Origin: Buxus sempervirens
Lineage: Eukaryota > Streptophyta > Magnoliopsida > Buxales > Buxaceae
DNA length: 64,000 nucleotides
Assembly: GCA_947561395.2 (NCBI GenBank)
Contig: OX387183.1
Coordinates: forward strand, 35,700,853-35,764,852
Reading direction: 5' to 3'
Made by a program: the position numbers and the translations under genes. The notes under the pieces were generated by a model that was not told where the DNA came from, did not search any database, and saw only the letters and a program-made list of their open reading frames with translations. The first letter of the stretch is position 1; each line of letters starts with the position of its first letter. This document shows, one piece after another, positions 480-61,189 of the stretch.

Positions 480-2755
480 TGTGAGACATGGGAAAAAATC
501 ACCGGAGTGATCGTCCCTCCGTCAGCACACGGGCTCAACGCAAAAAAACGGGAGAGTCGCCACCATTCATGATTTTGGGGTGAGAATGGACACCAAAGAT
601 TCAAAATATGCAAAAATAGCCAAAAGACAAATTCTAGGATAAAAATAACCCTACTTGAAAATAAAATCCAGAGATGGGTAAGGGGATTAGATTATGAACG
701 GGGGAAGGTGTTAGGCACCCCCATTCATCCACACGAAGTGGTTGCCAAGTGTATGTTCATGCAAAAAATAAAGTAAGAAAGCTTGCTAAAAATCATGAGA
801 AACCTTGAAAAAGGTCAAATGTATGATATCTCCACATGAAGATCTAAATGGATTTTAGATCATCTCTTATGTCAATATCAGTTCTGGAACATTAAAAAGG
901 TGGAAATCAAAACACAAGTTGCTCAAAACCAAGTTAAATCAAATCCGGGGAGTTTGGTAAAAAGTATGTCATTTGCCTTAAAATCATTCAAAATCCAATT
1001 CTAAATTGAACCAAACCAAATCCATTTGAAAGATTAGGGCAAATAAGAGTTTCATGCAAAATTTCAATCCATTCCGATAAAAATCCTAGGAGTTATGCTC
1101 CCTTGAAGTTGCTGCTGGGGATTTTTAAAAGTGGTAAGTGGGCAACTTTGGAAAATTGTCTAGAAAAATCCACTACATAGAAATCCACGAAATTTGGTGT
1201 GATTGAAGTCTGTATGGCCATATTTCAACAGAAACTAGCCTCATACAAAAATCCCTTCGGATGTGCCTTGGGTGGTCTCCCGAACAGGCCCCGAAGATCA
1301 CAGATTTACCCAGAAAAATGCAAATGAGCAGTTCTGAGTAAATCGGCTACCAATAATTCAAATGGAATCCAAAAAATTATGAAACCAACTGGATTTAAAA
1401 ATAGACTCATAAATGAGTACTCAGAAACAAAAATCACTCGAATCGGACTTAAAACGAACACATGGCGGTCCGTCGAAGTGACAAGTTCTGTACTTGGACC
1501 TGAACTGTCCACTTAACTTCGACAGAGCAGTGTCAAAAATCGGCTAGATAGAAAATCATGAAATTTGGTGGACATAAACTAGACAGCCTCACCTTTCCCA
1601 TGGTTCTGGAATCGCCCCAAAATTCATTCGGATGATGAAGTTACGGACGTCCGAAGTAGGGGTACAGGTGCTGTCAAGCTAAGCCGTTTTTGAAGAAAAT
1701 CAAATCCGAAAATTGACAAAAAGTGTGTGATTCGTGAGAGATGAATCCAAAACCTTTGAACAACATTTAAAAACACTCCAGAATTGATTTAGGCAATTTA
1801 TTGGAGTTTTATCACAATAAATGCAATAAACCCCAAATATGAGCCTATCCCGCCAAAATAGTGTAATGTATGTGCAAGTGTAAAAACCCAAACAAGATCA
1901 ATACAACATGCATATAGATTCAACAAAATAGGTTCTAGCATAGCCTAGGGTTCCGTTCCATTATCGTTTCCCTCTGTTCTCTTTAAGATAATCAAGGGTA
2001 CTTTGAATATGGAACGGTTTACAATCAATCAAAAGCCTTACGCTACATGGGTTCTAGCACTAGGGTCAATCCCCAGTCTCGTTTCTCCTAGATCCGCCTT
2101 CACGTTTTACGGCTAGGGGAGTCTTGAGATACTTTGAGCCGGGGAAGGATTTCCACACACACAAACAAGGCTTTACACTACAGAAAGGTAGAAGAAGAGA
2201 TCTAGATCTAGGAATGTAAAGACAGAAAATAAAGAGAAAAGTTGAGGCTTACCTGAATTCTGGAGGCGATTCCGCAGCGGTTTTCTTCTTCTCTTGGAGT
2301 TCTTCTTTGCGAGAATTCAAAACAAGAGTTGTGTGCCATTTGCTCAAGGAGGAGGCTCCTATTTATAGGCAAGGGCTAAGGTCATTGGTAGACACAACTT
2401 AATGTCTAGAACCCCTCCAACCTAAACCCTAAGGTTATTTCCGCGATTTCCCCTCATTTAATGAGGGACATGATGGTAAAAGTGAAAAGCTCTCGGAAAA
2501 CCCTAATTTTGAGCAAACTTAAGGTATCCGGTATATCAGGCCGGATAACAAAGGGCATTAAGGTATCCGGTACATGGTACCGGATACGCTAAAGCCCACA
2601 AGTATCCGGTATGAGTATCCGGATAGGGGAAAGGGTACTTGTATCCGGATTGAGTATCCGGATACAGGTAAAAGTATATTTTTTTCAAATTCTGTGCTGG
2701 CTTTCCAGGAGATAATGATTTTTGATGATTGTTTGTGCAATTTGGGGTGTCTACA
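480..2755 (-). repeat. Element A 3' LTR
   Basis: Begins TGTGAGACATGG and ends GGTGTCTACA on the plus strand, so on the element strand it starts TGTAGACACC and ends in CA. It matches 19889-22163 almost base for base. U3 holds the palindrome array at 2524-2665 and a TATA box (minus-strand TATAAAT, 2361-2367). The splice-donor-like CAG/GTAAGC lies just downstream of that TATA. Confidence 0.95.
2524..2665. promoter_or_regulatory. Four-unit 39-bp-phased palindrome array in the 3' LTR of A
   Basis: Units start at 2524, 2563, 2602 and 2641, exactly 39 bp apart. The unit at 2563-2587 is a perfect dyad: GTATCCGGTAC, ATG, then its reverse complement. The others are imperfect versions of GTATCCGG-N9-CCGGATAC. 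Each contains CCGG, a site that can be methylated in CG and CHG contexts. The array lies in U3, upstream of the LTR TATA box. Confidence 0.85.
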
Positions 2756-2800
2756 ACTGCCCCTCTTTGCGGGAGCTGCGAAGCAGTGAGCTGCAAAGAG
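2756..2800 (-). promoter_or_regulatory. Polypurine tract of A with adjoining hairpin
   Basis: On the minus strand the LTR is preceded by GCAAAGAGGGGCAGT, a purine-rich primer for plus-strand DNA synthesis. Its GCAAAGAG part (2763-2770) pairs with CTCTTTGC (complement of 2793-2800), so the tract lies in one arm of a hairpin. Element B keeps the hairpin with changed arms (32847-32884). Confidence 0.75.
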
Positions 2801-2930
2801 TAGACAAGCCCAAATTGCATTCCCTTGAGCATGATTTGCTCGGTTCAATTCAATTTTTGTAGAAAACAATTTTTGAGTGGAGATTTGCCAAAAAGGCCCT
2901 CACTTTAAGGGGGCATCTCTCCAAGAGTTC

Positions 2931-2973
2931 TTAAATTCCACTGAGCCCTTTGTGGCTGTGAAGTGGATTTTAA
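2931..2973 (-). repeat. Stem-loop 1 of element A (3' untranslated region)
   Basis: Arms TTAAATTCCAC (2931-2941) and GTGGATTTTAA (2963-2973) pair at 10 of 11 positions around a 21-nt loop. The loop resembles that of stem-loop 2 (3076-3113) and of three structures in B and C. It lies in the element's sense RNA between pol and the polypurine tract. Confidence 0.55.
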
Positions 2974-3075
2974 GCCCAAAAATAGGATTTTTGAAAAACT
3001 GATTTTTTATCAAACCAAGTTGAAAATTGAGTGGATATCATCCTTTTGACCAGGCACATTTCCCAAGGTTGTCCC

Positions 3076-3113
3076 GAATTCCACAGAGCTCTCGTGGCTG
3101 TGAGGTGGATTTC
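3076..3113 (-). repeat. Stem-loop 2 of element A
   Basis: Arms GAATTCCAC and GTGGATTTC (8 of 9 paired) flank the loop AGAGCTCTCGTGGCTGTGAG. The loop core GAGCTCTCGTGGCT recurs exactly in element B at about 33049-33062 between unrelated arms. Confidence 0.55.
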
Positions 3114-3364: not shown

Positions 3365-3416
3365 GTATCCGGTAAGTGTATCCGGATAATACAGGGTCTG
3401 CGGGTATCCGGATCCC
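3365..3416 (+). promoter_or_regulatory. Two-unit palindrome array upstream of antisense gene 1 (A)
   Basis: Units begin at 3365 and 3404, again 39 bp apart; the second is only a half-dyad here. In element C both units are fuller (45450-45474, 45489-45513) and are followed at once by TATAAA at 45522. In A the equivalent of that TATA is altered (TTACTTAAG near 3422). Confidence 0.7.
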
Positions 3417-3751
3417 GCAGGTTTACTTAAGTCGCGCGCGACCGCGACTTTTCCTCTTCTTTTCTTCTTGCTCCGATTACTCAGACCGGCTCCAGTCTTT
3501 GCTTCTTCGACGACCGACGATCCTACTTCTTCTCCGGCGATCTCCGACGACTCCGATGCTCTTTTTGCTGCCGGCGACCACCTGTAACTCCGGCGACTTC
3601 TGTTCCTTGCCACAACTGAGCCCTAACTCGGCTTTCTTCAAAAATTTTCGATTTCCAGCGACTTTATCAACTCAGTGTGGGGTGTTGATCTTCGGTGATT
3701 GCTTGTGCCTGATTCTTCATCAACCAGATTCCCTTCTTTGCTGCTCAACTA

Positions 3752-4461: not shown

Positions 4462-7153
4462 ATGGCTAGGAGTCGTTCCCGCGTTCGTGAGGAGGTTGAC
4501 CCGACCGACCGGCCTTCTTCTTCTAGAGCTCGGATTGATACTAGTTCTAGTGCCACCCTGTCCGAGCCACTAGGCGACTCTCGAGAGAGCTCTGCTGAGG
4601 TAGACTTTCACGCCCTTTCTCTCTTTTCTTTCTTCCATTCTCCTTTCTACACAAATCTTCACGCTGTTCCTTTGAAATTTAGCCCGTGGTTGCACCCGCT
4701 CGTGGTCGAGGCCGAGGGCGAGGCAGAGTTCAGGATCAGGCCCCTGAGGGCGAGAGAGGCCGTGGTAGAGGCCGAGGCAGAGCCAGAGATATGGCTCCGG
4801 AGGGGGTTGCTGTAGCTTTGGCAGGGGTATCTGAGGAGTTGAGGGCTTCTGTGCATGATACAGAGCTCCTCCATGGCTTGGATAGCCACCCCTCCATGTG
4901 CATCAGGGCCGATGTGCCGCTTCCCTACTATTCTTCCCACTTGCGCGGCAGCTGGGGGAGATTCAGCGAGTTGGCACGGTCACTTTCTCCGGCACTCAGG
5001 CGGGAGTTTGGGAGGTGCCATCTGGATCATTTCCTCAGTATTCCATCATTCAGAGCCGACCGTCCACTCATCTTTGCCATGATGGAGAGATACTTCCCAG
5101 AGACACAGTCGTTCCACCTGCCGGACGTGGAGCTGGGGATCCGCCCTTCCGATTTTGTGATGATTACTGGCATTCCTCTGACGGGGCGGACCATCGTCTT
5201 GGAGCGGCCTTCTGCGGAGGATATGGGACTTCTCCTGGGATATCAGGCCCTGCCTCCTACTGCTTGGGATGGGCGGAGTGGCCGGCTCTCCATTAGTTGG
5301 TTGCGGGAGAGTCTGGCTCGACATTTTGAGGGGAGGCACAGGACTGTGGCTGTGGATGATGCCGCATTTATTCCTATCTTCCGGCACGTATTCCTGCTGA
5401 TGCTTGGGAGCTGCTTTTTCCCGGAGGATACAACCGGCGTCAGCCCACTTTTCCTGGACGCTTTGAGAGATCTCCATCAGACCCGCCAGCTAGCATGGGG
5501 TCGGCTCATTTATGGGACCATCTTGGCCGGGTTGTGCCGGGCAGTTCGAGGTCTGGCATCCCCGAGAGGCGATGGAGTCAGCAGCCGGTTCTTCTGGCAG
5601 ATTCTACAGGTATTGCATTTATCTGTATAGCTTAATTCTTTAGGCTTTATCTTTTCTTGACTGATTTTTCTTTTGCTAGGTGTTCATGTACACCTACATG
5701 ACCTTCTTCCGCCCCTCCCCGGTTCCTGAGGTTGCGGATTTTCCCGTGGCCCTGCGATGGTCGGCCCAGGTTCGAGATGCCGACAGGAGCCAGCCTCGTA
5801 CTGCCCGGGTGCACTTAGACCGTGCACGCCGATCTGATGTAAGTCCTCTATCTTTTTTCTTTTATTTCCTTTCCTGTACCTTGACTGTATCTGACCACTT
5901 TGCTTCTTTGCAGCTCATTCTATCCCGTCCAGATGACGTGGATGTCGGAGTTGCCCGTGAGATGGCAGTACAGGATGCTTTTGAGCGAGATCTCCGACGT
6001 CAGTCTTACCAGTGCTTCCTTGGGAGGCTTGGTAGGGTGATGTACTTGGGAGAGCGCCTGTACTACCAGCACACTGGCGCACTTCGCATCCCCGTCCCTC
6101 CTCCTGCTGTGGGTCCCGACACACTCCTCCCGGGCTTTGATGTTGATCAGTTCGATCACTTCTTGGATGCGGAGGGGCTTACAGTAGCTGGAGATTATGA
6201 CGAGTGGTTCCAGCGGGTGTCTATTGGATGCTTGATGGATCGACCCACTCGTGCTGGGGTGACTGAGATTGGCGGGATCCGTATCCGGATCCATGAGGAC
6301 ACGGTAAGCCTTGTACTCTTCCCATTTTTATCCTCTTTCCCTTCCTTATGCCTTTCTGACCATGCTTCCGTTCTTATTGGCAGGTACACGAGCTGAACTC
6401 CATTCGGGACCGGTTCGAGAGCCAGCGGGCTGCGATTGATGATATGATCGCGGAGCACGATGCAGTCGTGGCCCAGCGGGATGCCCGGATCAGGGAGCTG
6501 GAGGCCCTAGTTGCTGAGCTCCAGTCTAGACAGGTATCTGGCCCTCTCATATGTTCATTTCTTTCATTATTTTCCCATTTCTGCTATTCTGATGTGCTTG
6601 TTTGACTTGTGCAGGGCCCGGTCCATGATCAGGACGCCTTCTTTGAGCATGATTTCCTGATTCCTGACCCATCTCCGGCTCAGGCTGCTGATCCCGAGGA
6701 TGCCCCCGCGGCTGGTCTTGACGAGCCGGATCCTCCTGCTCCTTCTGCAGACATTCCTGGTATGATCTTCTTTTAATTCTCCTCTTTTATTCTTTCTTAT
6801 ATTTGAGTCTTCTGATTGTTCTCTTTTTTGTGGACTCAGCTACTTCTGATCCCGGCCCCTCTGCTGCTGATGCTGGGCCTTCTGGAGCTGCGGGAGCAGA
6901 GGATGCTTTGGATGAGGGCCCAGTTGGGCCGGTTGCTGCTGAGCCCGAGGCTTCTTCCCCAGATTCTACTCCTGCTCCTCCTCCAGATCTCGAGGATTAT
7001 TGCTTGGAGTATCATCTTCAGCAGGTGGTAGGTCGGCATCCTCGCCATGCGGCCGAGCGGATTCTTGCATACTCTAGAGGCCGAGCCCTTTGGGGGAGAC
7101 GCCGTAGAGGTGGACGTGGCCGAGGACTCGGGGATGATCCTGCACAGGAGTAG
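4462..7153 (+). CDS. Antisense gene 1 of element A: plant-mobile-domain-like protein, 7 coding exons
   Basis: Opposite to gag-pol. Coding exons 4462-4599, 4683-5609, 5680-5838, 5914-6303, 6384-6533, 6615-6759 and 6840-7153 join with GT/AG borders and matching phases into 740 open codons. Order: Ser/Arg-rich start (MARSRSR); two RG-rich blocks (about 49-80); a large domain resembling the plant mobile domain (PMD), with FHLPDVELGIRPSDF near residue 190; a short helix region in exon 5; an acidic Pro/Ala-rich stretch; and an RG-rich tail (GRRRRGGRGRG). PMD proteins are known from plant transposons and from MAIN-family nuclear proteins. The RG blocks suggest nucleic-acid binding, but that is inference. 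The copy in C is 46818-49498. Upstream lie a 5' UTR intron and palindromes. This is the only undamaged antisense gene in the window. Confidence 0.8.
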
Positions 7154-7358: not shown

Positions 7359-7499
7359 GTATCCGGTCTGACATACCGGATACATGGATTGGTCTTTGTA
7401 TCCGGTATGTTATACCGGATATTCATGGAATCCTTTGTATCCGGTATACTTATTCGGATATTACCAAAGCCTTTGTATCCGGTCTGAGTTACCGGATAT
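7359..7499 (+). promoter_or_regulatory. Four-unit palindrome array upstream of antisense gene 2 (A)
   Basis: Units start at 7359, 7398, 7438 and 7475 (spacing 39, 40, 37). Best dyads are GTATCCGGT-N7-ACCGGATAC-like, for example 7359-7383 and 7398-7422. The array stops 12 bp before the TATA box at 7512. In C the matching array has exact 39-bp spacing. Confidence 0.85.
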
Positions 7500-7628: not shown

Positions 7629-8413
7629 ATGGAATCCGGATCATCTTCTGCCCCATTATTGTCTGTCCACACTGCCTCCCCTGCAAAACAGCCTTTTAGA
7701 TCAAAACCCCCAAATCTCACTAGGTACAACCCTGTGGATTCCTTTTACACAAGGTGGGTTAACTCTATGACCCTAGATGAGGAGAGGAGATGGGGTTCTA
7801 CTAATCTAGGCCATACCCTGCTCATTCCCAAGGTTCCCTTCAGGTGGGAGATTATAGAGGCCATGATTGGTCATTGGGTTCCTGATCTCAACCTGTTCTG
7901 TTTTGGGACCCATGAGATGACCCCAACCATTGAGGAGGTGGAAACCATCCTGGGCCTGAGGTTTGATGAGAAGGTGGTGAATCCACCTCTTAGGCCCAGT
8001 TATAAGAAGGAAGCTTCTACTTTTTTGGGTATAGGGAAGAAGGACTTGGGGGATTCTGACACCCTTTTGACTCTATCTAAGGCTTTTTTGACTGAGAAGC
8101 TTTTGAGGGGAGAAGATAAGGAGGCCCGATTCAACGCGTTGACCCTGATAGTGGTCAACCAGTTGCTTTTCCCTCGGGAGGATGACGAGGTGGACTTGGC
8201 CTTGATTTCTGTGATCTGCCAGGTCAGGGAGCGGGAGAGGTTGGCCCCTATGATTTTAGCTGGGATATATCAGGCCTTGACTGACTGCTACAACAGGAAG
8301 TCGAAACGCTTCTTAGCATGTGCCCAGATCCTGCAGGTAAACAAGTTTTTTTTTTTTCTTTCTTTTTCTCTTTTTCTTTTTTCTTGCTTTTTGGCCTTCT
8401 TTTTGCCTTTTTT

Positions 8414-8453
<40 letters not shown>

Positions 8454-9366
8454 TACAATGTGCTGACACCTCTTTCTTCCTTTGCAGCTTTGGCTACTTG
8501 ATCATTTGAGCCAGATTGAAGAGATCAATCGACACTTCTTCCCGAGTCTGAAAGTCCCTTTGTTGATGAGCAACAGGGGGTGCCCCGATATTCCAGGGGG
8601 CAAACAGGGCTGGTTCACCTTCTTGGGCTCGCTTCAGGATGACCAGGTGAGATGGCCTGGTACTTATCAGCCTAATGCGGAGACAGTGATTAGCTTCCGA
8701 GACCGCAACTTTCTGATTTTGGCTAGCCTGAGGCATGCAGTGCTTTATCTTCCTCTGCGGGTCCTTCGTCAGTTCCGAGCGACCCAGGGGATTATCATCC
8801 CATGTGGATATGAGGATCGTCTTGGGCCCCTTTCTATGAAGCTAAATGCCTGGTTGATGAAAGAGTGGTCCTATGTCCGCTTTATGCATGGTCCAGTCTT
8901 CTGAGAAGCCCATGTGAAGGATTATCTCTTCTGGATCAAGGAACAGATACAGACTCAGGCCCCAGTACCCGAAGATCCTCCTGTAGTCTTGGCTCCCACC
9001 TATGAGGACATTCTAGAGTCTGAGCGGGCTTCTCATAAGCGGCTTCAGCAGATATGGGTACGGGAGGCCCATGAGCTCAGGATACAGGGCGCTTATCTGG
9101 AGAGGCAGCTTGAGGAGCAGATCTCACGCCGTATTGCCGTGGAAGAGAAGCTGGAGGAGCAGAGGCAGGCCCGTCGCTTCGAGGTCCGTATGATCCGGCA
9201 GAAGTACCAGGATACTTTGGCCAGCCTTAGGAGTATGCGGATCAGGCAGGCCCTTTCAGATGAGGTCATTTCCTTCTTGAGTGATCCCGCTGCAGAGGGG
9301 GCTTCAGGAGTCATTGCAGCTCAGGCAGCTCGGATTCGGGAGCTTGAGGAGCGGCTAGGAGACTAG
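7629..9366 (+). pseudogene. Antisense gene 2 of element A: PMD/DUF7745-like protein with coiled coil, one nonsense codon
   Basis: Two exons, 7629-8336 and 8488-9366, with donor CTGCAG/GTAAAC and acceptor TTTGCAG; both keep one frame. I chose the ATG at 7629 (CCAATGG, start MESGSSS) because it is conserved in C at 49985; an in-frame ATG at 7536 is less likely. The N-terminal half has FGTHEMTPTIEEVETILGL near residue 100, typical of the plant PMD-like/DUF7745 fold. The C-terminal third (from about 9010) is charged and heptad-like, ending RIRELEERLGD, so probably a coiled coil. A TGA at 8902-8904 replaces the Ser codon of C, and nine bases present in C (51152-51160 region) are missing. The intron has a long T run (8417-8453). 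Its function is unknown; partnership with gene 1 is inference. Confidence 0.75.
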
Positions 9367-10310: not shown

Positions 10311-13300
10311 TCATGGAAAATACCTTTTTACCGCATCAGAGTTAATGGGCTCAGGAAAATCTGACCCATCCATTTCTGCTAAGATGAGTGCACCCCCTGA
10401 CAGTACTTTCTTGACGACATATGGGCCTTCCCAATTGGGCTTGAACTTACCACGAGGATCTTCCAAAAATGGTAGAATTTTCTTTAGCACTAAGTTTCCT
10501 TCTTGGAAAGTTCTGGGCCTCACTTTCTTATTGTAAGCCCGGGCCATTCTCTTCTGGTACAACTGTCCATGACAAAGCGCTTTCAACCGCTTTTCTTCTA
10601 TCAAGTTAAGTTGATCATGTCTCGACTGGATCCATTCGGCTTCTTCTAGTTCTGCTTCCATGAGCACTCGGAGTGAGGGGATCTCTACTTCCACGGGCAA
10701 GACTGCTTCCATCCCATAGACTAGGGAGTACGGGGTTGCCCCAGTTGAAGTCCGGATCGAGGTTCTGTATGCATGCAGAGCAAGTGGCAGCATTTCATGC
10801 CAATCTTTGTAGCTTACTACCATCTTCTGAATGATTTTCTTTATGTTCTTGTTTGCTGCTTCCACTGCCCCATTCATCTTTGGCCTGTACGGAGCTGACT
10901 TATGATGGGTGATCTGAAACTGCTCACACATTTTCTTCATGTCCTTGTTCTTAATATTTGAAGCATTGTCTGATACTATAGCACTTGGCAGTCCATAGCG
11001 ACAAATAATATTGTGCTTCAAAAATTTGATCACATGGTTGCTTGTGATATTTGCATATGATGCTGCTTCCACCCACTTAGTGAAATAATCAATTGCCACC
11101 AAGATGAATCTGTGCCCGTTCGATGCCTTAGGGGAGATCATGCCGATGACATCTATGCCCCACATAGAGAAGGGCCAGGGTGATGTCATGTTGTGCAACT
11201 CACCTGGGGGTGCATGCTTATTATCTGCATATATCTGACATTGGTGGCACCTCCTGACATGTATACAGCAATCATGCTCCATGGTTGTCCAGTAATATCC
11301 CAGCCTCAGGATCTTCTTAGCCAGCATGTGCCCACTCATATGGGGCCCACAGACTCCTCCATGTACAGTCTCAATCAGCCTCTCCGATTCCGCCTTGGCA
11401 ACACATCTTAGCAGAATGTCATTATGTGACCTCTTGTACACATGTCCACCACTTAGCAGAAATTGACCAGCCAATCTCTGTATTGTCCTCTTCTCAGTAG
11501 CAGTGGCATTTTCTGGCAAACTCCGATTATTCAAGAAGTTCTTGATATCCTGAAACCATGGTGTTTCTTCTTCTGGTGCTCCCTCTAGAATGAGACAGTA
11601 AGCCGGTTCATCTCGGACTTCAATTTCCAGCGGTCTGATGTCTACTCCTTCTGATATGCTGACCATTGAAGCTAATGTTGCTAGAGCATCCGCAAACTGA
11701 TTCTTGGCCCTTGGCATATAGTTGAAGGAAATTCGAGTGAAATTTGTGCTTATTTCTTCCAAGTACTGGTGATAGGGGATCAATTTGTGATCCTTGGTTT
11801 TCCACTCACCAGTTGTTTGGAAGATGATAAGACTCGAATCCCCGTATACGTCAAGTTCCTCTACTCCATGATCCATGGCTGCTTGCAATCCAATTATGCA
11901 TGCTTCATATTCTGCTATGTTATTGGTGCACTGGAATCTCAGCTTTACTGCAATCGGGATGTGTGAACCATCTGGTTTGACCAAGACTGCCCCTATTCCG
12001 TTCCCATTCATATTGGCGGCTCCATCAAAGAACATCTGCCAAGAACTCTCACTGTCTTCCTCTTCAGTGTACAGAATTGCCTCATCTGGGAAGTTGGTCT
12101 TCAAGGGTTGATATTCTGGCAAAGGATGTGCAGCCAGGTGATCAGCTATGGCTTGACCCTTGATCGCCTTCTGGGTGATGTATGTGAGGTCAAACTCGGA
12201 CAATAGCAGTTGCCACTTTGCCGTCCTGCCAGTTAATGCCGGTTTCTCAAATAAATACTTCAGCGGGTCCATCCGGGATATCAATAGTGTGGAGTGACTA
12301 AGGAAATAATGCCTTAGCCTCTGAGTGGCCCACACTAGAGCACAGCAAGTCTTTTCCAATGGTGAGTATTTAGCTTCATATTCTGTGAATTTTTTACTCA
12401 GATAGTAAATTGCCCTTTCTTTTCTACCAGTCTCATCCTGTTGCCCCAAGACACATCCCATCGACGTTTCCAACACTGACAAGTACAGGATCAGCGGTCT
12501 TCCTGGAGTTGGTGGCACTAGTACCGGTGGGTTCAGCAAATACCTCTTTATGGTGTCAAATGCCTGCTGGCAGTCCTCATTCCAGACCGTAGGGTTATCT
12601 TTCCTTAGAAGTTTGAAAATTGGTTCACAGATAGCAGTGAGCTGTGCTATGAACCGGCTTATGTATTTAATCCTTCCAAGAAAGCCCCTGACCTCCTTCT
12701 CTGTTCTGGGTGCTGGCATTTCAATTATGGCCTTGGCTTTAGCCGGGTCAATTTCAATTCCTCTTCGGCTCACTATAAACCCCAGTAACTTCCCTGATGT
12801 AGCCCCAAAGACGCACTTATCCGGGTTAAGCCGTAAACTGTACTTCCTGAGACGATCAAACACTTTCTTCAGATTGATCAAGTGGTCCTCCTCTTTGCAT
12901 GATTTGGCAATCATATCATCCACGTAGACTTCCATCTCTTTGTGGATCATGTCGTGAAATAGTGCAGTCATGGCCCGCTGGTATGTTGCCCCAGCGTTCT
13001 TAAGCCCAAATGGCATGACTGTATAGTGGAATGTGCCCCAAGGTGTGATAAATGCTGTTTTTTCTTGATCTTCCTTAGCCATCTTGATCTGATTATATCC
13101 CGAGAAACCATCCATGAAGGAGAACAGGCTATGTACCGCAGTATTATCGACCAGAATGTCGATGTGTGGAAGCGGAAAATCATCCTTTGGGCTTGCCCTG
13201 TTTAAGTCTCTATAATCTACGCACATTCGGACCTTCCCGTCCTTCTTTGGTACTGGCACTATGTTTGCGAGCCACTCTGGGTACGTAGAGACTGCCAGAA

Positions 13301-14546
13301 ATCCAGCTTGGAACTGCTTGACCACTTCGTCCTTGACCTTTAAGGTCCATTCAGGTTTCAATCTTCTCAGCTTTTGCTTAATCGGCTTAACCCCTGGTAA
13401 AATTGGCAACTTATGCACCACCATGTCCGTGTCCAACCCTGGCATGTCCCGATATGACCAAGCAAACACATCCTTGTAATCTGCCAAGAATTGTGACATT
13501 TCAATTTTCTGCACATCAGACAAGCATGACCCGATTTTTACAATTTTTGGGTCATCTTTGGTCCCCAGGTTTATGGATATGGTCTCCTCAATATTAGGTT
13601 GGACCCCCTTTTCATGACGTTCCAATTGGTATTCAATTTCTTTTGGAACGTCTTCTTCTTCGACCTCGGTCTCTTCTTCGACCCCCATGAGATCAAAGTC
13701 GAGCTCAAGGTCGAAGTCATATTCAACCTGGTCCAATTCGGTCTGATTATATGGCTCATAAGTGGTTTGGACCTTTTTGAAAAAATTAAATTTCCTAGAA
13801 AAAATAGAAAAATCTTTTTGGGTTTTTTGTGGGCCTTCTAAACATAATTCCCCTGAAGACGAAGGCCCATTAGAACCTTCAGGGAAATGGCATTCCACTA
13901 TTGGAGTTTTTTTTTTGGAAGCCGCGTCAGTTTGCCGAACTAACGCTGCTTCAAAAGTAAGGGGAGTTTCCTCCCAATTGTTAAGTACAAAATTTTTGGG
14001 AGCAGGGGAAATAGGGAAAGCCTGCTCTTCAAACCCAGCATCCGATGCCATCATCACCGGGTGGGTACTGCCCTTTTCTGCTGCGGGGCCCAATCCAGAA
14101 ATGACCTTGTCTGGAACCTTTACTGCGGTCCAGTCAATAAATTGCAGTTCCATGTCTGCCCCTATCTTTTCGCCTTCAGTCATGGCGAAGAATGCACCAA
14201 TATCTTCAGAAAAGTCCGCCTGTTGCTCGGGCTGTGGTCCAGGCCCATCCACGGCTCCCAGTATTGGAGATGGGTTATAGGGTTGTAGGGCCGAAACAAC
14301 AGGCTTCTGAAATGGGTTGACATTGTAGTAGGGAGGTTTTGATTGGTCCATAGGAGGAGAAATTTGGATTATGTAGGAGGGTTTAGGGAAACTTTCCCTT
14401 AAATGAGGGGGTTTTCCTTTGCTTCTGCTCTCCCCTTCTTCGTGCTTCATTCTTCTCCAGCCTCTGGGCTTGAAGCCCAACCCTACCTTGGGGATCAGTT
14501 TCTTAGCCGTGATTGGCTCCACCATACCCTGCAGATTGATCCCCAA
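10311..14546 (-). CDS. pol: pol polyprotein of element A: RT, RNase H, second RNase H, integrase
   Basis: A single open frame of 1411 codons from the first Met after the stop at 14568-14570; the frame itself opens just after that stop, and its first part completes a G-patch (GKGLGINLQG, later VGLGF). Reverse transcriptase spans about residues 415-620, with the catalytic motif YVDDMIA near residue 541 and MPFGLKNAGATYQRAM before it. The pol RNase H follows (ETSMGCVLGQ). A second, plant/archaeal-type RNase H lies at about 835-962 with FDGAANMNG, AEYEA, YGDSSLI and QFADALA supplying its acidic residues; such a double RNase H is typical of Tat elements. The integrase has HVRRCHQC, then the DDE residues in GIDVIG, VSDNASN and NGAVEAANKN. 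No break was seen, so this is probably a working enzyme set. Confidence 0.93.
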   Translation of the reverse strand: MGINLQGMVEPITAKKLIPKVGLGFKPRGWRRMKHEEGESRSKGKPPHLRESFPKPSYIIQISPPMDQSKPPYYNVNPFQKPVVSALQPYNPSPILGAVDGPGPQPEQQADFSEDIGAFFAMTEGEKIGADMELQFIDWTAVKVPDKVISGLGPAAEKGSTHPVMMASDAGFEEQAFPISPAPKNFVLNNWEETPLTFEAALVRQTDAASKKKTPIVECHFPEGSNGPSSSGELCLEGPQKTQKDFSIFSRKFNFFKKVQTTYEPYNQTELDQVEYDFDLELDFDLMGVEEETEVEEEDVPKEIEYQLERHEKGVQPNIEETISINLGTKDDPKIVKIGSCLSDVQKIEMSQFLADYKDVFAWSYRDMPGLDTDMVVHKLPILPGVKPIKQKLRRLKPEWTLKVKDEVVKQFQAGFLAVSTYPEWLANIVPVPKKDGKVRMCVDYRDLNRASPKDDFPLPHIDILVDNTAVHSLFSFMDGFSGYNQIKMAKEDQEKTAFITPWGTFHYTVMPFGLKNAGATYQRAMTALFHDMIHKEMEVYVDDMIAKSCKEEDHLINLKKVFDRLRKYSLRLNPDKCVFGATSGKLLGFIVSRRGIEIDPAKAKAIIEMPAPRTEKEVRGFLGRIKYISRFIAQLTAICEPIFKLLRKDNPTVWNEDCQQAFDTIKRYLLNPPVLVPPTPGRPLILYLSVLETSMGCVLGQQDETGRKERAIYYLSKKFTEYEAKYSPLEKTCCALVWATQRLRHYFLSHSTLLISRMDPLKYLFEKPALTGRTAKWQLLLSEFDLTYITQKAIKGQAIADHLAAHPLPEYQPLKTNFPDEAILYTEEEDSESSWQMFFDGAANMNGNGIGAVLVKPDGSHIPIAVKLRFQCTNNIAEYEACIIGLQAAMDHGVEELDVYGDSSLIIFQTTGEWKTKDHKLIPYHQYLEEISTNFTRISFNYMPRAKNQFADALATLASMVSISEGVDIRPLEIEVRDEPAYCLILEGAPEEETPWFQDIKNFLNNRSLPENATATEKRTIQRLAGQFLLSGGHVYKRSHNDILLRCVAKAESERLIETVHGGVCGPHMSGHMLAKKILRLGYYWTTMEHDCCIHVRRCHQCQIYADNKHAPPGELHNMTSPWPFSMWGIDVIGMISPKASNGHRFILVAIDYFTKWVEAASYANITSNHVIKFLKHNIICRYGLPSAIVSDNASNIKNKDMKKMCEQFQITHHKSAPYRPKMNGAVEAANKNIKKIIQKMVVSYKDWHEMLPLALHAYRTSIRTSTGATPYSLVYGMEAVLPVEVEIPSLRVLMEAELEEAEWIQSRHDQLNLIEEKRLKALCHGQLYQKRMARAYNKKVRPRTFQEGNLVLKKILPFLEDPRGKFKPNWEGPYVVKKVLSGGALILAEMDGSDFPEPINSDAVKRYFP

Positions 14547-14567
14547 GCCTTTCCCTGGGTGAAAGTG

Positions 14568-17500
14568 TTATTTCTCCATCACTTTCTTGACCATTTTTTC
14601 TGCAGTGGTCCCTTTTTCCTTCTTTTTCTCACACCCCCCAGGTATGTAATTGACCGCCTCAAATTGAAATGAGTGGAATGCAATCTTGTCAACAGTCAAG
14701 TCCACATTTATCAAGGGTACATCAGGTGACACAATGGGCGGCACCAAGTTTTCAGCTAGGACTGTTATCACCCTTTGCCCTCTTATATATTTCACCCTTT
14801 GGTGGAGCGTGGATGGTATTGCCCTAGCCGAATGTATCCACGGCCTCCCTAGGAGCAGATTGAAGGCTGCGGGTATATCCATCATCTCAAATGTGATGTT
14901 AAAGATATTCGGCCCAATTGTGACCGGCAGTTCAATCTCCCCTAGGGAGTGGGTCTTGGAGCTATCAAAAGCCCTTACTATCCGCCCATTTCGTTTTATC
15001 TTTGACTGGTCCAGACCCAGCTTGGTAAAAGTGATTAACGGGCAAACGTTTAACGCTGACCCGTTGTCAATTAAAACCCGTGCAACCATGCAGCCCTTAC
15101 AAAGCACAGTGATGTGCAAAGGGTCCACATGATAACACCCACCTGGGCTGATCTCACCCTCTGAGAAACTTATCACATTATGTGACAAGATTTGACCAAC
15201 CATTTTGCCAAGCTGGTCTGGATCAATGGTCTGGGATACGTGTGCACTCTGCAGCACCCTTAACAATGCATCCCTATGCTTTTCGGAATTCAGCAAGAGG
15301 CCCAGTATTGAAATCTGGGCCGGGACCTTATTTAGCTGATCCACAAGATTAAATTCACTCTTTTTGATTATTTTTATGAGGTCTGCTGCCTCATTTTCTG
15401 CACCCTGGGGGGTGTCTTCTCCCACTTTATTTTTTCCTTTTTGTTTTCTTTTTTTCTCATTTTCTTTTTCTGTTTTTTCTTTTTCTACTTCTGTCTCCTT
15501 TTCTTTCTCTTCACCCCCTGCACATCTCCCCGACCTCGTCATGAGGTTCACCTCCTCCTGGTTCTGGTTCCTGACCATTGGAACCGTAGCCGTGATTCCC
15601 TCGCTGTAGTTCCATGGTACAGCGGCCTCTGAATAGGCTAATTTAGGGATGTCAACCACTAGTGGCTGGAGTCTGGACCGGGATGTATGGGCCGGTTTAG
15701 GGATAGTATGGGCTGGCTGCACATTTACAACCAGGGGTTGAAGTTTAGATTTGGTGGGGACAGAAGAAGTGATGGAAGCAGTAGTGGGGTCAAGATTGAT
15801 GACCAGTGGAGCCTTAGACGGCTTGGATGGGGAATAAATGGGTGGACTGCAATTGAAGACCAATGGGGGCCTTGCAGTATTCATCTGGGTCATAAGAGAT
15901 GAGACCCGGTTCAAAGAGGAACTTATGTCCTCAGCAGCTGTATTATTTTTTTGGGAGACCATGTTGATCTCCTCTTCTTCCCCTTCTGGGAAAAATCGGA
16001 CCTGGACCGTGGTCCCCACGGGAGCTATGAGCTGTGATGGGTCAAAGGCCCTTCTGGTGGTGGATATGGCAGAGATGGAGTTGGATGGGCCTGCCCCATT
16101 GTGGTACGGCAGAGGGTTCTGCCCAATATCATTCCCGGACGGGGCCGGTGCAGCAGTGTTAAAGACCAAAGCCTTCTGGTCCAACAAATCCTGAACTGCA
16201 TGCTTCAGCACCCAGCAGGTATCAGTAGAGTGCCCCGGTGCACCCATGTGGAAGTCACAGGTGACCGATGTGTCAAAATTTCTTCCCCTGGTGGCATTCG
16301 GGTTAGGCTCCTTCAGAGTCAAGTATTCCCCTTTCAGCAGGGTTGGCAGTAGTTGGGACAGAGATATGGGTAGAGGGGTGAAAACCCGGTTCTTTCTCGC
16401 TGCGAACCAAGCATCCCGCTCCTCCTTAGAAAAAGTCCTCCTTGTGTTAGCTGGCACAGAGGGAGGGAAGTTGACATTTAGCGGGGTCTGGTACGACTGC
16501 TGGGCCTGCTGGGCCTGTTGGGGTGCAGAGATGTTGACGTGCAGTGGCTTCTTGGCTGGAGGAGCCTGGACTAGGTTCACCTCCCCTTCTTTTCGGGCCC
16601 CTGTCTTTTTAAACCCGGCCCCTTTCTTCTGGGCCATAGAGGCAGAGGAATCAGACTGCCCAGTCAGAGTAGAGTAGTCTATCAGTCTTCCTGACCTGAC
16701 CCCTTCCTCAATCCGGTCCGCCACTTGTACCAGGGCAGCAAAGTTGGTGGTTATCTGACCCACCAGATGGTTGTAGAAGGGCTGGCCCAGTGTGCCCATA
16801 AATGTGGAGATCATCTCCGGCTCTTGCATAGGTGGCCTGACCTGGGAGGCGGCCTCTCTCCATCTCTTGGCGTACTGCCGTACCGGTTCATCCTTCCCCT
16901 TGGTCATCCTCATCATGTCGTACCGGTCTGGCACGATCTCAGAGTTGAACTTGTACTGGTCCAGGAAAGCATCGGCCAAGTCCTTCCACCTTCTAATCCT
17001 TCCATGGTCCACTGTAGCGAACCACCGAAGGGCTGACCCGGTCAGACTCCTCTGGAAGAGCTGGATCAGTATTCCATCGTCCCGGCCAAATTGGCACAGG
17101 GCCCCGCAGTATAGTTTCAGATGGCTTAATGGGCAGCCCGTGCCATCAAACTTGTCAAAATCCGGGCACCTGAACTTAGCCGGTAGACAGACGTCCGGGT
17201 ACATGCACAGGTCCTCGAAGGTGGTGCCTGCATGGCGGCCTCCCCCCTTCACTTCCTTCAGCTCTGCTTGGATCCTTTCTATCCTCAGCAGCATTTTCTT
17301 CTCCATCTCATCTCGGGCCTTTTCTTTTTCCAGCTCTTTCTCAGACTCTGCTGTATTTTCCCTGATCAGAATGGGTTCAGGGACTGGTTCAGAAATGGGC
17401 TGAACCGGAGGCGGAATGTAGGCCTGAGGTGGTGGTGCCTGATGGGAAGTAGATGCCTGGTTCGGGGCTTGGGCCTGTTGGGCCTGAGCCGCCAGTAGGT

Positions 17501-17597
17501 CCCCCAGCATTTTGGCCAGACCGGCCACTTGCTCCTGCAGTTGAGTAAAGTCCTGAGCAGGGACGGTAGCTTGGGCTTGGTTCTCTTCAGTATTCAT
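14568..17597 (-). CDS. gag: gag-protease of element A
   Basis: Same frame as pol, ended by TAA at 14568-14570. I start at the Met of MNTEENQAQ (17597-17595), conserved in all three elements; an upstream in-frame Met at 17702 precedes the probable splice acceptor at 17664 and is not conserved. Retrotransposon gag domain: CPDFDKFDGTG, then WKDLADAFLDQYKF and RQYAKRWREAA. A variant zinc knuckle, CDFHMGAPGHSTDTC, lies near 16217-16261; Tat/Ogre gag often shows this C-H-H-C-like form. The aspartic protease motif is VLIDNGSALNV (about 15046-15078), with LLGRPWIH further on. The start of the G-patch (VKKVMEK) ends the frame. In C the stop codon is TAC (Tyr), so the ancestral element probably made one continuous gag-pro-pol protein. 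Confidence 0.9.
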   Translation of the reverse strand: MNTEENQAQATVPAQDFTQLQEQVAGLAKMLGDLLAAQAQQAQAPNQASTSHQAPPPQAYIPPPVQPISEPVPEPILIRENTAESEKELEKEKARDEMEKKMLLRIERIQAELKEVKGGGRHAGTTFEDLCMYPDVCLPAKFRCPDFDKFDGTGCPLSHLKLYCGALCQFGRDDGILIQLFQRSLTGSALRWFATVDHGRIRRWKDLADAFLDQYKFNSEIVPDRYDMMRMTKGKDEPVRQYAKRWREAASQVRPPMQEPEMISTFMGTLGQPFYNHLVGQITTNFAALVQVADRIEEGVRSGRLIDYSTLTGQSDSSASMAQKKGAGFKKTGARKEGEVNLVQAPPAKKPLHVNISAPQQAQQAQQSYQTPLNVNFPPSVPANTRRTFSKEERDAWFAARKNRVFTPLPISLSQLLPTLLKGEYLTLKEPNPNATRGRNFDTSVTCDFHMGAPGHSTDTCWVLKHAVQDLLDQKALVFNTAAPAPSGNDIGQNPLPYHNGAGPSNSISAISTTRRAFDPSQLIAPVGTTVQVRFFPEGEEEEINMVSQKNNTAAEDISSSLNRVSSLMTQMNTARPPLVFNCSPPIYSPSKPSKAPLVINLDPTTASITSSVPTKSKLQPLVVNVQPAHTIPKPAHTSRSRLQPLVVDIPKLAYSEAAVPWNYSEGITATVPMVRNQNQEEVNLMTRSGRCAGGEEKEKETEVEKEKTEKENEKKRKQKGKNKVGEDTPQGAENEAADLIKIIKKSEFNLVDQLNKVPAQISILGLLLNSEKHRDALLRVLQSAHVSQTIDPDQLGKMVGQILSHNVISFSEGEISPGGCYHVDPLHITVLCKGCMVARVLIDNGSALNVCPLITFTKLGLDQSKIKRNGRIVRAFDSSKTHSLGEIELPVTIGPNIFNITFEMMDIPAAFNLLLGRPWIHSARAIPSTLHQRVKYIRGQRVITVLAENLVPPIVSPDVPLINVDLTVDKIAFHSFQFEAVNYIPGGCEKKKEKGTTAEKMVKKVMEK

Positions 17598-17663
17598 TGT
17601 TCTTGCTTTGGATCTGGTCACGGGAGCAATGACTGCAAATGAGTGCACCCGGGGTTGAATGTA

Positions 17664-17666
17664 CCT
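17664..17666 (-). promoter_or_regulatory. Candidate splice acceptor upstream of gag (A)
   Basis: The minus strand reads a pyrimidine run then CCCTCAG/GTACATT, the exon starting at 17664. B (CCCCAG/GTAC, 37914) and C (CTCCAG/GTACATT, 59953) match. A donor CAG/GTAAGC is conserved in all LTRs. Splicing would remove about 4 kb of leader with its many ATGs, including the primer site. Confidence 0.45.
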
Positions 17667-42615: not shown

Positions 42616-44949
42616 TGTTAGACACGGGAAAAAATCACCGGAATGATCATCCCTCCGTCAACACACGGGGCTCATCTTAAAAAGTTTGGGAGAGTCGCCA
42701 CCATACATTTTAGGGTGTGAATGGAAACCAAGATACTCAAAATCATCAAAAAGTGCAAAAAGCCAATTCTAGGGTAAAAATAACCCTACTTGAAAATCAA
42801 ATCCAGAGATGGGTAAGGGGATTAGATTATGAACGGGGGAAGGTATTAGGCACCCCCATTCACCCACACAAGGTGGTTGCCAAGTGTTTGTTCATGCTAA
42901 AAGAAAATGGGTAGCTTGCTAAAAAATCATGAAAAGCCTTGAAAAAAGGAACAAGTGTATGATATATTCAAATGAAGATCCAAATGGATTTTAGATCTTC
43001 TCTTATGTCAATATCATTTCTGAAATGTCATAAAAGGATAAAAATCCAAGCAAAAGAATGTACAAAACCAAGTTGAGGCAAATCCGGGAAATTTGGTGAA
43101 AGTAATGCCATTTGTCTTGAAATCATTCAAATCCAATTTTAAATCAAATCAAACCTAATCCATTTGAAAGATTATAGTAAATAAGAGTCTCATGCAAAAT
43201 TTCACTTCATTCCGATAAAAATCCTAAGAGTTATGCTCCTTTAAAGTTTCTGTTGGGGATAATCAAAAAGTGATAAGTGGGCAACTTTGGAAACGTGTCT
43301 AGAAAAATCCACTCCATAAAAATCCACGAAATTTGGTGTGATTGAAGTCTGTATGGCCATCTTTCAAAAGAAACTAGCCTCATACAAAAATCCCTTCGGA
43401 TGTGCCTTGGGTGGTCTCCCGAACAGGCCCCGAAGATCACAGATTTACCCAGAAAAATGCCATTGAGCAGTTCTGAGTAAATCGGCTACCAATAATTCAA
43501 ATGGAATCAAAAAATTACTAAACCAACTGGATTTAAAAATAGACTTATAAAGGAGTGCCCAAAAACAAAAATCATTCGAATCAGACTTAAAACGAACACA
43601 TGGCGCTCTGTCGAAGTGACAAGTTCTGTATTTGAACTTGAACTGTCCAATCAACTTTGACAGAGAGGTGTCAAAAATCCGTTTTATAGAAATTTATGAA
43701 ATTTTGTGGACATAAACTAGACGGCCTCACCTTTCCCATAGTTCTAGAATCAATCCAAAATTCATCCGGAAGATGAAGTTATGAGCATCCGAAGTAAGGG
43801 TATAGGTGCTGTCCAGTTAGGCCCTTTTTTGAGTAAAACCAATGCAAAATTGTGATAAAGTGTGTGCCATTCGTGCAAGATGAACATAAATCTTTGAAAA
43901 ATCATTTGAAAACATTTTAGAATTGATTGAGGCCATTTATTTGAGATTTATCACAATAAATGCAATAAACCCCAAATATGAGCCTATCCCACCAAAATAG
44001 TGCTATGTATGTGCAAGTGTAAAAAAACCATACAAGATCAATAGAACATCATGGCATGCATACATATTCATGAAAATAAGGTTCTAAAATAGCCTAGCGT
44101 TCCGTTCCATTATCGTTTCCCTCTGTTCTCTCTCCCCGTTAAACATGGTTCTTCAAGATAATCAAGGGTACTTTGAATATGAAACGATTTACAATCAATC
44201 CAAAGGCCTTATGCTATATAGGTTCTAGCACTAGGGTTAATCCCCAGTCTCGTTTCTCCTAGATCCCACCTCCACGTTTTACGGCTAGGGGGAGTCTCGA
44301 GATACTTTGAGCCGGGAAAGGATTTCCACATACAAAGAAGGCCTTATTCTATAGAAAGGTAGAAGAAGAGATCTAGATCTAGGAATGTAAAGACAGAAAA
44401 TAAAATAAAAGTTTGAGGCTTACCTGGATTCTGGAAGCACTTCCGCAGGGGTTTTCTTCTTCTCTTGGAGTTCTTCTTTGCGAGAATTCAAAACAAGAGT
44501 TAATGGCCATTTGCTTAAGGAGGAGCCTCCTATTTATAGGCAAAGGTTAGGGTTAGGGTTGGTGAGAATGGTAGACACAACATAATGTCTATAGCCCACC
44601 AACCTTAACCCTAAGGCTATTTCTGAGATTTCCCCTCATTTAATGAGAGATATGATGGTAAAAGTGAAAAGCTCTCGGAAAACCCTATTTTTGAGCAAAA
44701 CTTATGTATCCGATATGTCAGGCCGAATACACAAGGGCCTTAAGGTATCCGGTATATAATACCAGATACACTAAAGCGCTCTTATATCCGGTCTGTTAGG
44801 CCAGATACACAGAGGAGTACTTGTATCCGGCCTGAGTTGCCGGATACAGGTAAAAATTTATTTTCTTCAATTTTTGTGCTGGCTTTCAAGGAGATAATGA
44901 TTTTTAATGATTATTGATCATTTTGACAGTGCAATTTGGGGTGTCTACA
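42616..44949 (-). repeat. Element C 3' LTR
   Basis: Plus-strand TGTTAGACACGG to GTGTCTACA. It has TATA (minus) at 44532-44538, the donor-like CAG/GTAAGCC near 44423, and a palindrome array at 44706-44847. It is clearly closer to A than to B. Confidence 0.9.
44706..44847. promoter_or_regulatory. Four-unit palindrome array in the LTR of C
   Basis: Units at 44706, 44745, 44784 and 44823, exactly 39 bp apart. The last is a near-perfect dyad (GTATCCGGC-N7-GCCGGATAC). Confidence 0.85.
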
Positions 44950-45449: not shown

Positions 45450-45527
45450 GTATCCAGTATAACATACCGGATACGAATGACCTTGTGTGTATCCGGTTTG
45501 ATTGATCGGATACACCTGCTTTATAAA
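45450..45527 (+). promoter_or_regulatory. Promoter of antisense gene 1 in C: two palindromes and TATA
   Basis: Dyads at 45450-45474 and 45489-45513 (39 bp apart), then TATAAA at 45522-45527, only 8 bp after the second dyad. A GTCGCG-rich block follows, conserved in A at 3429-3450. Confidence 0.7.
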
Positions 45528-49712: not shown

Positions 49713-49872
49713 GTATCCGGTCTGATATACCGGATACATTGATTGTTCTTTGTATCCGGTATCATATACCGGATACACATGGCCTCCTTTGTATCCGGTA
49801 TACTTAACCGGATATGAATAAAACCTTATTTATCCGGTCTGAGTTACCGGATACATTAAAAGATACTATAAA
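49713..49872 (+). promoter_or_regulatory. Promoter of antisense gene 2 in C: four palindromes and TATA
   Basis: Units at 49713, 49752, 49791 and 49830, exactly 39 bp apart; 49713-49737 is GTATCCGGT-N7-ACCGGATAC. TATAAA lies at 49867-49872, 12 bp after the array, as in A. Confidence 0.85.
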
Positions 49873-59800: not shown

Positions 59801-59902
59801 TAAGTCTCCCAGCATCTTGGCCAAACCAGCCACTTGCTCCTGCAGCTGAGCAAAGTCCTGAGCGGGTACGGTGGCTTGGGCTTGGTTCTCCTCAGTATTC
59901 AT
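56868..59902 (-). pseudogene. gag-protease of element C, decayed
   Basis: Start MNTEENQAQ at 59902. Gag domain, knuckle (CDFHMGAPGHSTDAC, about 58560-58505) and protease (VLIDNGSALNV, about 57380-57350) are recognisable. Stops: one before 58505 (TGA after the knuckle, C of CWVLK lost), one near 58948, and a TGA in the gag domain near 59330 (WFATVD region). At the position of A's gag-pol stop, C has TAC (Tyr), so gag-pro and pol share one frame here. Confidence 0.85.
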
Positions 59903-60075
59903 GGCTCTTGCTTTAGATCTGGTCACGGGAGCAATGGTTGCAAATAAATGTACCTGGAGAAGAAAAATCAAAAGAACATGTTAGCTTTCATTTAACTTGA
60001 GTCACACCCCTATACAGGTAGACAAGTAGGTTAGGTGAACACCAGTCCAGGTTTTTTTTTTTTTGTTTTTTTTTG

Positions 60076-60760
60076 TTGGAATATTTTGGGGCTTCCAAGG
60101 GTCCTGCAAATTTTTGATTTGATTGGTACGAAAAAGACCAACCAAGGGTTTTTATGGAATATTTTAGGGCTTCCAGAGGTCCCACATTTTTTGATTTGAT
60201 TGATAAAAATAACCAACCAAGGTTTTCATGGAATGTTCTAGGACTTCCAGATGTCCCACAAATGTTTTGATTTGATTGATAAAAACAACCAACCAAAGGT
60301 TTCTTGGAATATTCTAGGGCTTCCAAGTGTCTCACAAATGTTTTGATTTGATTGATAAAAATAACCAACCAAAGGTTTCTTGGAATATTCTAGGGCTTCC
60401 AAGTGTCCCACAAATGTTTTGATTTGATTGATAAAAATAACCAACCAAAGGTTTCTTGGAATATTCTAGGGCTTCCAAGTGTCCCACAAATGTTTTGATT
60501 TGATTTGATTGATAAAAATAACCAACCAAGGTTTTCATGGAATATTCTAGGGCTTCCAAGTGTCCCACATTTTTTTTTGATTGATAAAAATAACCAACCA
60601 AGGTTTTCATGGAATATTCTAGGGCTTCCAGAGGTCCCATTTTTTTTTGATTTGATTGATAAAAATAACCAACCAAGGTTTTCATGGAATATTCTAGGGC
60701 TTCCAAGTGTCCCACATTTTTTTTGATTCGATTGATAAAAATAACCAACCAAAGGTTTCT
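60076..60760 (-). repeat. Leader minisatellite of element C
   Basis: About nine copies of a 70-80 bp unit, each with a TTGGAATATTCTAGGGCTTCCAA-type dyad and a TTTGATTGATAAAAATAACC segment. Copy number is clearly higher than in A. Confidence 0.85.
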
Positions 60761-61048
60761 TTTCTTTTTTTTATTATTGTTTTTTTCAAATTTGCTGAAT
60801 TTTCTCAGTTTTCAAGTTCAAAAGTTTGACTGAAACATGTTTGAATTGAGTTGATATCAAAAAATAGGACACCTTAGCTTGCTCTTTGAGTTTCAACATT
60901 GTGTTTAATCTTACAGGAATATATTTTTTTATATTTTTTTGAAACATTTTTATATTTTCTTTGGGGTGCCTAAGGATTATCTACAGTGTTTAGGCATCTT
61001 AAGTTTGAAAATTCGGGCTGAAAAAGCCAATTTATGCATTTTCTGCAT

Positions 61049-61189
61049 GTATCCGGTATTAAATACCGGATAAGGATATGTCTTATTGTATCCGGCAACA
61101 ATGACCGGATACAGCATAATCCTTTGTATCCGGTAATATGTACCGGATATGAAGATAATTGTTTTTAACCGGCCTGAGTTACCGGTTAA
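61049..61189 (-). promoter_or_regulatory. Palindrome array in the leader of C
   Basis: Units at 61049, 61088, 61126 and 61165 (spacing 39, 38, 39). The last is TTAACCGG-N9-CCGGTTAA. Confidence 0.85.

Follow-up and report, generated by a model that had tools for sequence, protein, structure and literature searches.

Phased palindromic arrays beside the promoters of Tat/Ogre-type retrotransposons with antisense PMD genes in Buxus sempervirens

What do evenly spaced palindromes do beside the promoters of a retrotransposon? This question is raised by a 64,000-nucleotide stretch of Buxus sempervirens contig OX387183.1 (positions 35,700,853 to 35,764,852; hereafter the window), in which three related Ty3-type long terminal repeat (LTR) retrotransposons, named A, B and C, are present wholly or in part, all on the minus strand. 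Two antisense genes, gene 1 and gene 2, lie between pol and the 3' LTR on the strand opposite to the element. A first-pass annotation of the sequence had described eleven arrays of 25-bp palindromes (dyads with 8-bp arms and a 9-bp centre) and had interpreted them as operator-like sites. We found that the arrays are real, constrained and widespread in this genome. They may be double-stranded DNA sites at which an oligomeric protein regulates the LTR promoter and those of the two antisense genes, with a plant mobile domain (PMD) protein of the element as the most probable binder, a reading to which we give an even chance.

Eleven arrays in three elements

The literal motif GTATCCGG-N9-CCGGATAC was scanned in the window with up to three mismatches. 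This gave 34 matches in 64 kb, as compared to a mean of 0.04 in shuffled sequence (100 shuffles, largest count 1), and all eleven arrays were recovered where they had first been reported. One of the 34 matches (9191, three mismatches, inside gene 2) is isolated and weak. When any 8-9-8 dyad in 38-40 bp phase was accepted (at least 7 of 8 pairs and a left arm with two or more G/C), 18 pairs were detected in the window, with 17 of them within the known arrays. Unphased perfect dyads with centres of 5, 7, 8, 10, 11 and 13 bp were also in excess over block-shuffled sequence, so the argument is carried by the phase and the shared arm and not by symmetry alone.

In element A the array of the 3' LTR (U3; 2524-2665) has four dyads in 39-bp phase and lies 156 bp upstream of the LTR TATA (GCCTATAAATAGGAG, 2356-2370 on the minus strand, TATA starting at 2367). 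The array before gene 1 (3365-3416) consists of one whole dyad and one half unit of which only the left arm is kept. Four dyads precede gene 2 (7359-7499) and end 12 bp before a TATA at 7512. The leader array (18374-18515) also has four dyads, 672 bp upstream of the gag frame; the fourth of them (18491) has the arms TTAACCGG/CCGGTTA and falls outside the literal motif. Four dyads are again found in the 5' LTR (U3; 21932-22073). Element C repeats this arrangement, with four dyads in the 3' LTR (44706-44847) 167 bp upstream of the TATA, two before gene 1 (45450-45513) ending 8 bp before a TATA at 45522, four before gene 2 (49713-49854) ending 12 bp before a TATA at 49867, and four in the leader (61049-61189), where the fourth (61165) has the arms TTAACCGG/CCGGTTAA.

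Element B contributed two arrays. Its 3' LTR array (32082-32262) has five dyads, whose arms on both sides mostly read GTATCCGA/TCGGATAC instead; the units are near-identical and derive partly from recent amplification. The leader array of B (39750-39891) has four units, the two middle ones decayed, and units 1 and 4 carry CCGA/TCGG arms, the fourth (39867) as TTAACCGA/TCGGTTAA. Taken over the window, the 39-bp spacing of the first-pass annotation holds nearly everywhere, with a 38-bp spacing once in A (7437-7475) and once in C (61088-61126). Its unit counts needed correction for the gene-1 array of A, and the fourth leader unit, in all three elements, is missed by its shared arm motif.

Further dyads were seen in the leaders. 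An array with a 41-bp period (about 18 copies) in the B leader (38185-38923) is likewise built from 8-9-8 dyads of 25 bp. Their centre, TTCAGAGGC, hardly varies, and their arms fall into three types that differ on both sides (GTCTAAAA, GTCTATAA, GTTTGAAA); RNA folding of this array was no better than that of shuffles. The 76-bp leader repeats beside gag (17797-18078, 38952-39507 and 60077-60758) hold (C)TTGGAA..TTCCAA(G) dyads with a similar centre.

One geometry across the genome and across arm classes

Next the motif was counted in the 676.5-Mb assembly. The perfect form GTATCCGG-N9-CCGGATAC occurred 20,444 times and its reversed control not once. Allowing a gap of 0-30 bp between the half-sites gave 20,703 pairs (control 2), and the gap was exactly 9 bp in 20,444 (98.7%) of these. 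Facing half-sites of neighbouring dyads, CCGGATAC-N(0-30)-GTATCCGG, were found 13,009 times genome-wide (control 2); among the 50 plus-strand matches listed, the gap was N14 in 34, N13 in 2 and N27 in 14, the last because the overlapping word GTATCCGGATAC lies on the same grid. In 52 arrays from the window and 23 loci, with units joined into arrays only at distances of 36-42 bp, 114 of the 120 neighbour distances were 39 bp and the other six 38 bp. A chance origin of the dyads is excluded.

The core of the dyad is TATCCGG-N9-CCGGATA. Across 79 distinct units from 30 four-unit arrays, pairing was 91-99% at positions 2 to 8, 59% at position 9 and 23-47% at positions 10 to 12. Four further near-full-length copies on contig C1 (3409338-3429866, 3441584-3462246, 4234111-4254949 and 4516488-4536727) all have four units per LTR, four in the leader, four before gene 2 and two before gene 1. 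A short copy (C1:3385806-3395483) retains the LTR, gene-1 and leader arrays, and no match to gene 1, gene 2, reverse transcriptase or integrase was found in it at E 1e-8. All six near-full-length copies examined, namely A with its half-broken gene-1 array, C without a 5' LTR and the four on C1, agree in the arm sequence of the dyads, their symmetry, their spacing and their place at promoters. To this extent the operator-like interpretation, in which a protein would bind the dyads, was partly supported. Absence of the arrays from other members, which the first-pass annotation had named as a counter-argument, is not what we found within this genome.

A change in one arm tends to be matched in the other. 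For position 8, the genome counts were 20,444 for G..C, 6,516 for A..T, 1,710 for A..C and 1,722 for G..T, with an odds ratio of about 45. Independent arms would give about 2,230 A..T pairs as compared to the 6,516 observed, which do not amount to 6,516 events, since the copies share ancestry. In B the position-8 change is seen in LTR unit 1, in leader units 1 and 4 and in the amplified units. The fourth leader unit reads TAACCGG/CCGGTTA in 7/7 leader arrays compared, and TAACCGR-N9-YCGGTTA was found at 2,913 places in the genome (control 5). Diverged copies carry TGATCCGA/TCGGATCA arms, or GTAGCCG./.CGGCTAC arms in which position 4 is changed on both sides and position 8 is mismatched.

A second arm class, ATAACCGAaa..ttTCGGTTAT, was detected with units 39 bp apart (C1:11960444 and 11960483, within the 400 bp read at 11960401-11960800). 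The pair ATAACCGA-N(0-30)-TCGGTTAT occurred 551 times genome-wide (control 16), and all 50 plus-strand matches listed were exactly 25 bp. The facing arrangement TCGGTTAT-N(0-30)-ATAACCGA was counted 214 times (control 12); of the 50 plus-strand matches listed, 21 had N14, 22 had N13 and 7 another gap. One geometry is therefore common to two arm sequence classes, and CCG is kept in all main classes.

Arm constraint, promoter position and the nature of the site

Elements A and C were compared site by site, with sums over the LTR, leader, gene-2 and gene-1 arrays and with B comparisons excluded. Arms differed at 16/208 sites (7.7%), centres at 35/117, spacers at 34/124 and flanks at 200/1,308. 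The arms were significantly less diverged than the centres (p=3e-7), the spacers (p=2e-6) and the flanks (p=0.003). Synonymous sites in pieces of gag, pol, gene 1 and gene 2 differ by 24-47% between A and C, and centres and spacers by 27-30%, which indicates that centres and spacers evolve nearly neutrally and the arms do not. In the comparisons with B, arms were kept no better than flanks (0.20-0.27 vs 0.21-0.26), in part because the B arms have changed class.

The same arrays bear on whether a palindromic unit has simply been duplicated in tandem, recently and neutrally, which is the least probable of the explanations that we considered. The near-identical units of the B LTR are what it predicts. 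In the 30 four-unit arrays, however, spacers within one array were 38% identical and centres 39%, as compared to 94% and 90% for the arms. Spacer identity was 75% to the equivalent unit in other copies, and 32% between units of different array types and positions. With nearly unrelated spacers and arms about 92% alike, recent tandem duplication cannot account for the arrays outside the B LTR, and the duplications must be old. Recent duplication with no conservation at promoters, the other counter-argument of the first-pass annotation, does not describe the arrays of this genome beyond that one exception.

The dyads could also act as RNA, either as hairpins of the full-length transcript with a role in packaging or stability, or as a source of small RNAs for silencing. 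We consider this improbable. RNA folding of the arrays is indeed much stronger than that of shuffled sequence (z about -4 to -16); the decayed leader array of B gave z -1.9 and -3.7, and one of four control stretches gave -3.4 on one strand. In maize Sireviruses, small RNAs are reported to be over-represented on the palindromic clusters of the LTR (Bousios 2016, cited in PMC10760457; published sources are cited here and below for extracts of their text). In the window set, broken pairs at positions 2-8 leaned to the wobble type of the genomic RNA (10 vs 4, p=0.18). Against this, folding was about equal on both strands, and in the 79 distinct units the broken pairs at positions 2-8 were 10 G-T and 8 A-C, with no strand preference, as for a DNA site. 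It is also the arm letters and not pairing alone that are conserved, the loop is free, and a constant 12 bp to the gene-2 TATA would be left unexplained. No match was found in Rfam at gathering scores. Conserved arm letters, free centres and the lack of a wobble preference are more in keeping with a DNA site for a protein than with a hairpin.

The position of the arrays relative to promoters is also regular. The array ends 12 bp before the gene-2 TATA in 6/6 rows compared and 8-9 bp before the gene-1 TATA in 4/6. In the LTR, the distance to the TATA is 156 bp in 13/17 rows and 166-167 bp in three, the remaining one being cut by the end of the locus. These distances are relevant to the idea that the sites serve an enzyme of the element, such as integrase or Gag acting on the complementary DNA (cDNA), and not transcription. 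The LTR and leader sites would be included in the cDNA. We found no link to the LTR ends, and two of the sites are tied to the TATA boxes of antisense genes, which makes this explanation very unlikely.

More weight is due to a host transcription factor, for which the arrays would be enhancer boxes that also happen to drive the PMD genes. TATCC/GGATA is a binding site of SHAQKYF-type MYB proteins, and the CCG shared by the main arm classes would suit a host factor. Repeated palindromic boxes lie upstream of the TATA in Sireviruses, which belong to another superfamily (PMC2829016), and the box of a Citrus Sirevirus, AATCCGGCTWRCCGGATT, has the same ATCCGG/CCGGAT half-site around a shorter centre (PMC2829016, Table 3). 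The Citrus half-site makes the host factor a serious rival. However, the half-site varies between families of the present elements and the 9-bp centre and 38-39-bp phase stay, whereas a fixed factor would more readily hold the sequence. In addition, the TAACCGG unit of the leader breaks the TATCC core. On balance we regard a host factor as rather unlikely.

The antisense PMD genes as candidate regulators

If the arrays are operator-like DNA sites, one dimer would occupy each 25-bp dyad. With dyads placed 39 bp apart, the centres of successive half-sites are alternately 17 and 22 bp from each other. Four units then span 142 bp, an arrangement that would suit a cooperative, oligomerising protein. 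Such a protein could bring the LTR promoter of an element and its two antisense promoters under joint control. The likeliest binders are one or both antisense PMD proteins of the element itself.

In A, gene 1 was followed from its PMD exon on (4683-7151, plus strand; predicted exon structure), with PF10536 in 4683-5609 at E=4e-14. Gene 2 (7629-9366, plus strand) matches DUF7745/PMD (PF24924 and PF10536, E=2e-17 and 5e-14). The second exon of gene 2 has an in-frame stop in A at about 8902, where C is open. The ratio of nonsynonymous to synonymous substitution (dN/dS) between A and C was 0.09 and 0.17 for two exon pieces of gene 1 and 0.065 to 0.13 for pieces of gene 2, which indicates conservation of both antisense genes at the protein level. 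A homologous-protein search gave two weak PMD matches for gene 1 and no match for exon 1 of gene 2. No relative of the PMD exon was detected in a PDB sequence search at E up to 1, and a PMD query in viral contigs gave no relative. The dyad pattern gave eight loci in the viral contigs, with one palindromic match each (both strands counted), and these were taken as chance.

Several observations weigh against operator-like sites read by a PMD protein. Between A and C, the arrays did not have significantly fewer insertions and deletions than the flanks (2/425 vs 9/1,223, p=0.74), and the case for fixed spacing depends on counts across the whole genome and on the constant length of spacers whose sequence has diverged. 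These counts do not represent independent events, since the copies share ancestry, and most genome loci, on contig C1, were picked for a perfect or one-mismatch dyad, which favours conserved arms there. Position 1 was paired in only 57% of the 79 distinct units. An asymmetric unit, GTATCCGA-N9-CCGGATAC, is retained in several copies of one diverged family, so perfect symmetry is not always required. A TATA beside the array was absent in 3/7 gene-1 promoters examined; TTTACTTAAG replaces it in A (3417-3440) and in two other copies (L022 and L029). The leader array lies at no recognisable promoter, with no minus-strand TATA common to A and C downstream, and the first-pass claim of arrays beside every transcription unit, which stood for the LTR and both antisense promoters, does not extend to it. 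The AlphaFold model of the gene-1 PMD exon had a predicted local distance difference test score of 47.7, too poor to judge DNA binding. Finally, no phased dyads were detected in 4 kb of one copy of a second PMD transposon family, indicating that PMD elements do not carry the dyads as a rule.

This second family (C3:45638601-45643500) has two PMD frames about 3.4 kb apart, and at least 12 such pairs are present in the genome. The copy was enriched for TCGGCC/GGCCGA hexamers, with 11 in 2,500 bp as compared to 0.8 in shuffled sequence and 4 in 1,500 bp as compared to 0.6.

Among the PMD proteins of the host, MAIN and MAIL1 take part in the silencing of transposons. Proteins with this domain occur widely across flowering plants, and what they do biochemically is described as unknown; PMD-A clades are encoded only by Gypsy elements, and an anti-silencing role has been speculated for PMD captured by Mutator-like elements (MULEs) (PMC5418596). 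Extra open reading frames (ORFs) with PMD occur in 57% of Ogre elements (PMC6317226). The extracts of these two sources give no cis target of a retrotransposon PMD.

The closest published promoter boxes are those of the Sireviruses. These Ty1/copia elements carry multicopy palindromic boxes upstream of the extra gene ENV as well as of the LTR TATA, and most of the boxes have a CGG-CCG core (PMC2829016). The first-pass statement that nothing of the kind had been described was therefore mistaken. Palindromic boxes in retrotransposon promoters are already known; what is new is the rigid geometry and the link to antisense PMD genes. The Sirevirus boxes of Table 3 are 10-20 bp long. By our own reading their centres do not exceed about 4 bp, and the extracts state no fixed period (PMC2829016). 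Here the dyads are 25 bp with a 9-bp centre and a 39-bp period, the carrier is a Ty3 element, and there are two antisense PMD promoters, a leader array and two arm classes. In Retand, a member of the Tat group, antisense genes also lie between pol and the 3' LTR, with tandem repeats and a proposed DNA-binding regulator, but the elements encode TRP28 instead of PMD, and the arrays are not called palindromic, the stem palindrom being confined to the reference list (PMC11963269). No description of phased dyads in Tat/Ogre elements was found in the open-licence literature, which was covered mostly at the level of titles and abstracts.

Like VANC of the VANDAL transposons, a PMD protein might recognise its own element and either activate it or counter its silencing. 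VANDALs, which are MULEs, encode this accessory protein, and its targets are noncoding tandem-repeat motifs that diverge between relatives (PMC5735166, PMC10398659). The present elements share with them a constrained accessory gene (dN/dS 0.065-0.165) and repeated noncoding motifs, putative targets, that differ between families. They differ in that VANDALs are DNA transposons and VANC proteins have DUF1985 and DUF287 (PMC5735166, PMC10398659), domains for which no match was found up to E=10 in the seven pieces scanned, covering most of both antisense genes. The terms palindrom, inverted, dyad and spacing are absent from the main text of PMC5735166. Tentatively, and with somewhat less confidence than in the main reading of the arrays, we propose a self-recognition code in plant Ty3 retrotransposons, a counterpart of VANC, in which an antisense PMD protein of fixed architecture would read 25-bp dyads on a 38-39-bp grid at the promoters of its own element, with families changing the half-site and keeping the geometry.

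A candidate DNA target adjoining retrotransposon PMD genes turns the function of PMD into a simple binding question. If the element PMD does bind, these retrotransposons would possess a transcription regulator of their own with a coordinated regulon, as in complex retroviruses, and from the dyads one could read, as from a code, on which of the thousands of copies each family acts.

Sequence features place the elements that carry the dyads in the Tat/Ogre type of Ty3, and both of their antisense PMD genes are conserved. Element A (480-22163, minus strand) is complete at 21.7 kb, with LTRs 99.6% identical over 2,284 aligned bp and a flanking 5-bp target duplication CTACC (475-479 and 22164-22168). 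Its gag and pol (10311-17702, minus strand) form one open frame each, gag at 14568-17702 and pol at 10311-14567. Reverse transcriptase, RNase H, a second RNase H-like domain and integrase were identified in pol with Pfam, and the integrase follows reverse transcriptase and RNase H, which is the Ty3 order and not that of Ty1/copia. The dual RNase H (RT_RNaseH at 688-792 and RVT_3 at 847-965) is a feature reported for the Tat group (PMC9289625). Element A thus combines the Ty3 domain order, with LTRs and target duplication, a dual RNase H, PMD extra ORFs and a very large size. A putative primer-binding site sequence was also seen.

No DNA match between B and A was found in pol and the antisense genes at the cut-off used. 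Element C, a relative of A, is inserted in the 5' LTR of B, and its DNA pieces are 83-92% identical to A. It resembles A up to about 62533 and is without its 5' LTR. The similarity ends just before the expected primer-binding site, and the sequence that follows (62534-64000), which has no element match, holds a 93-bp tandem duplication.

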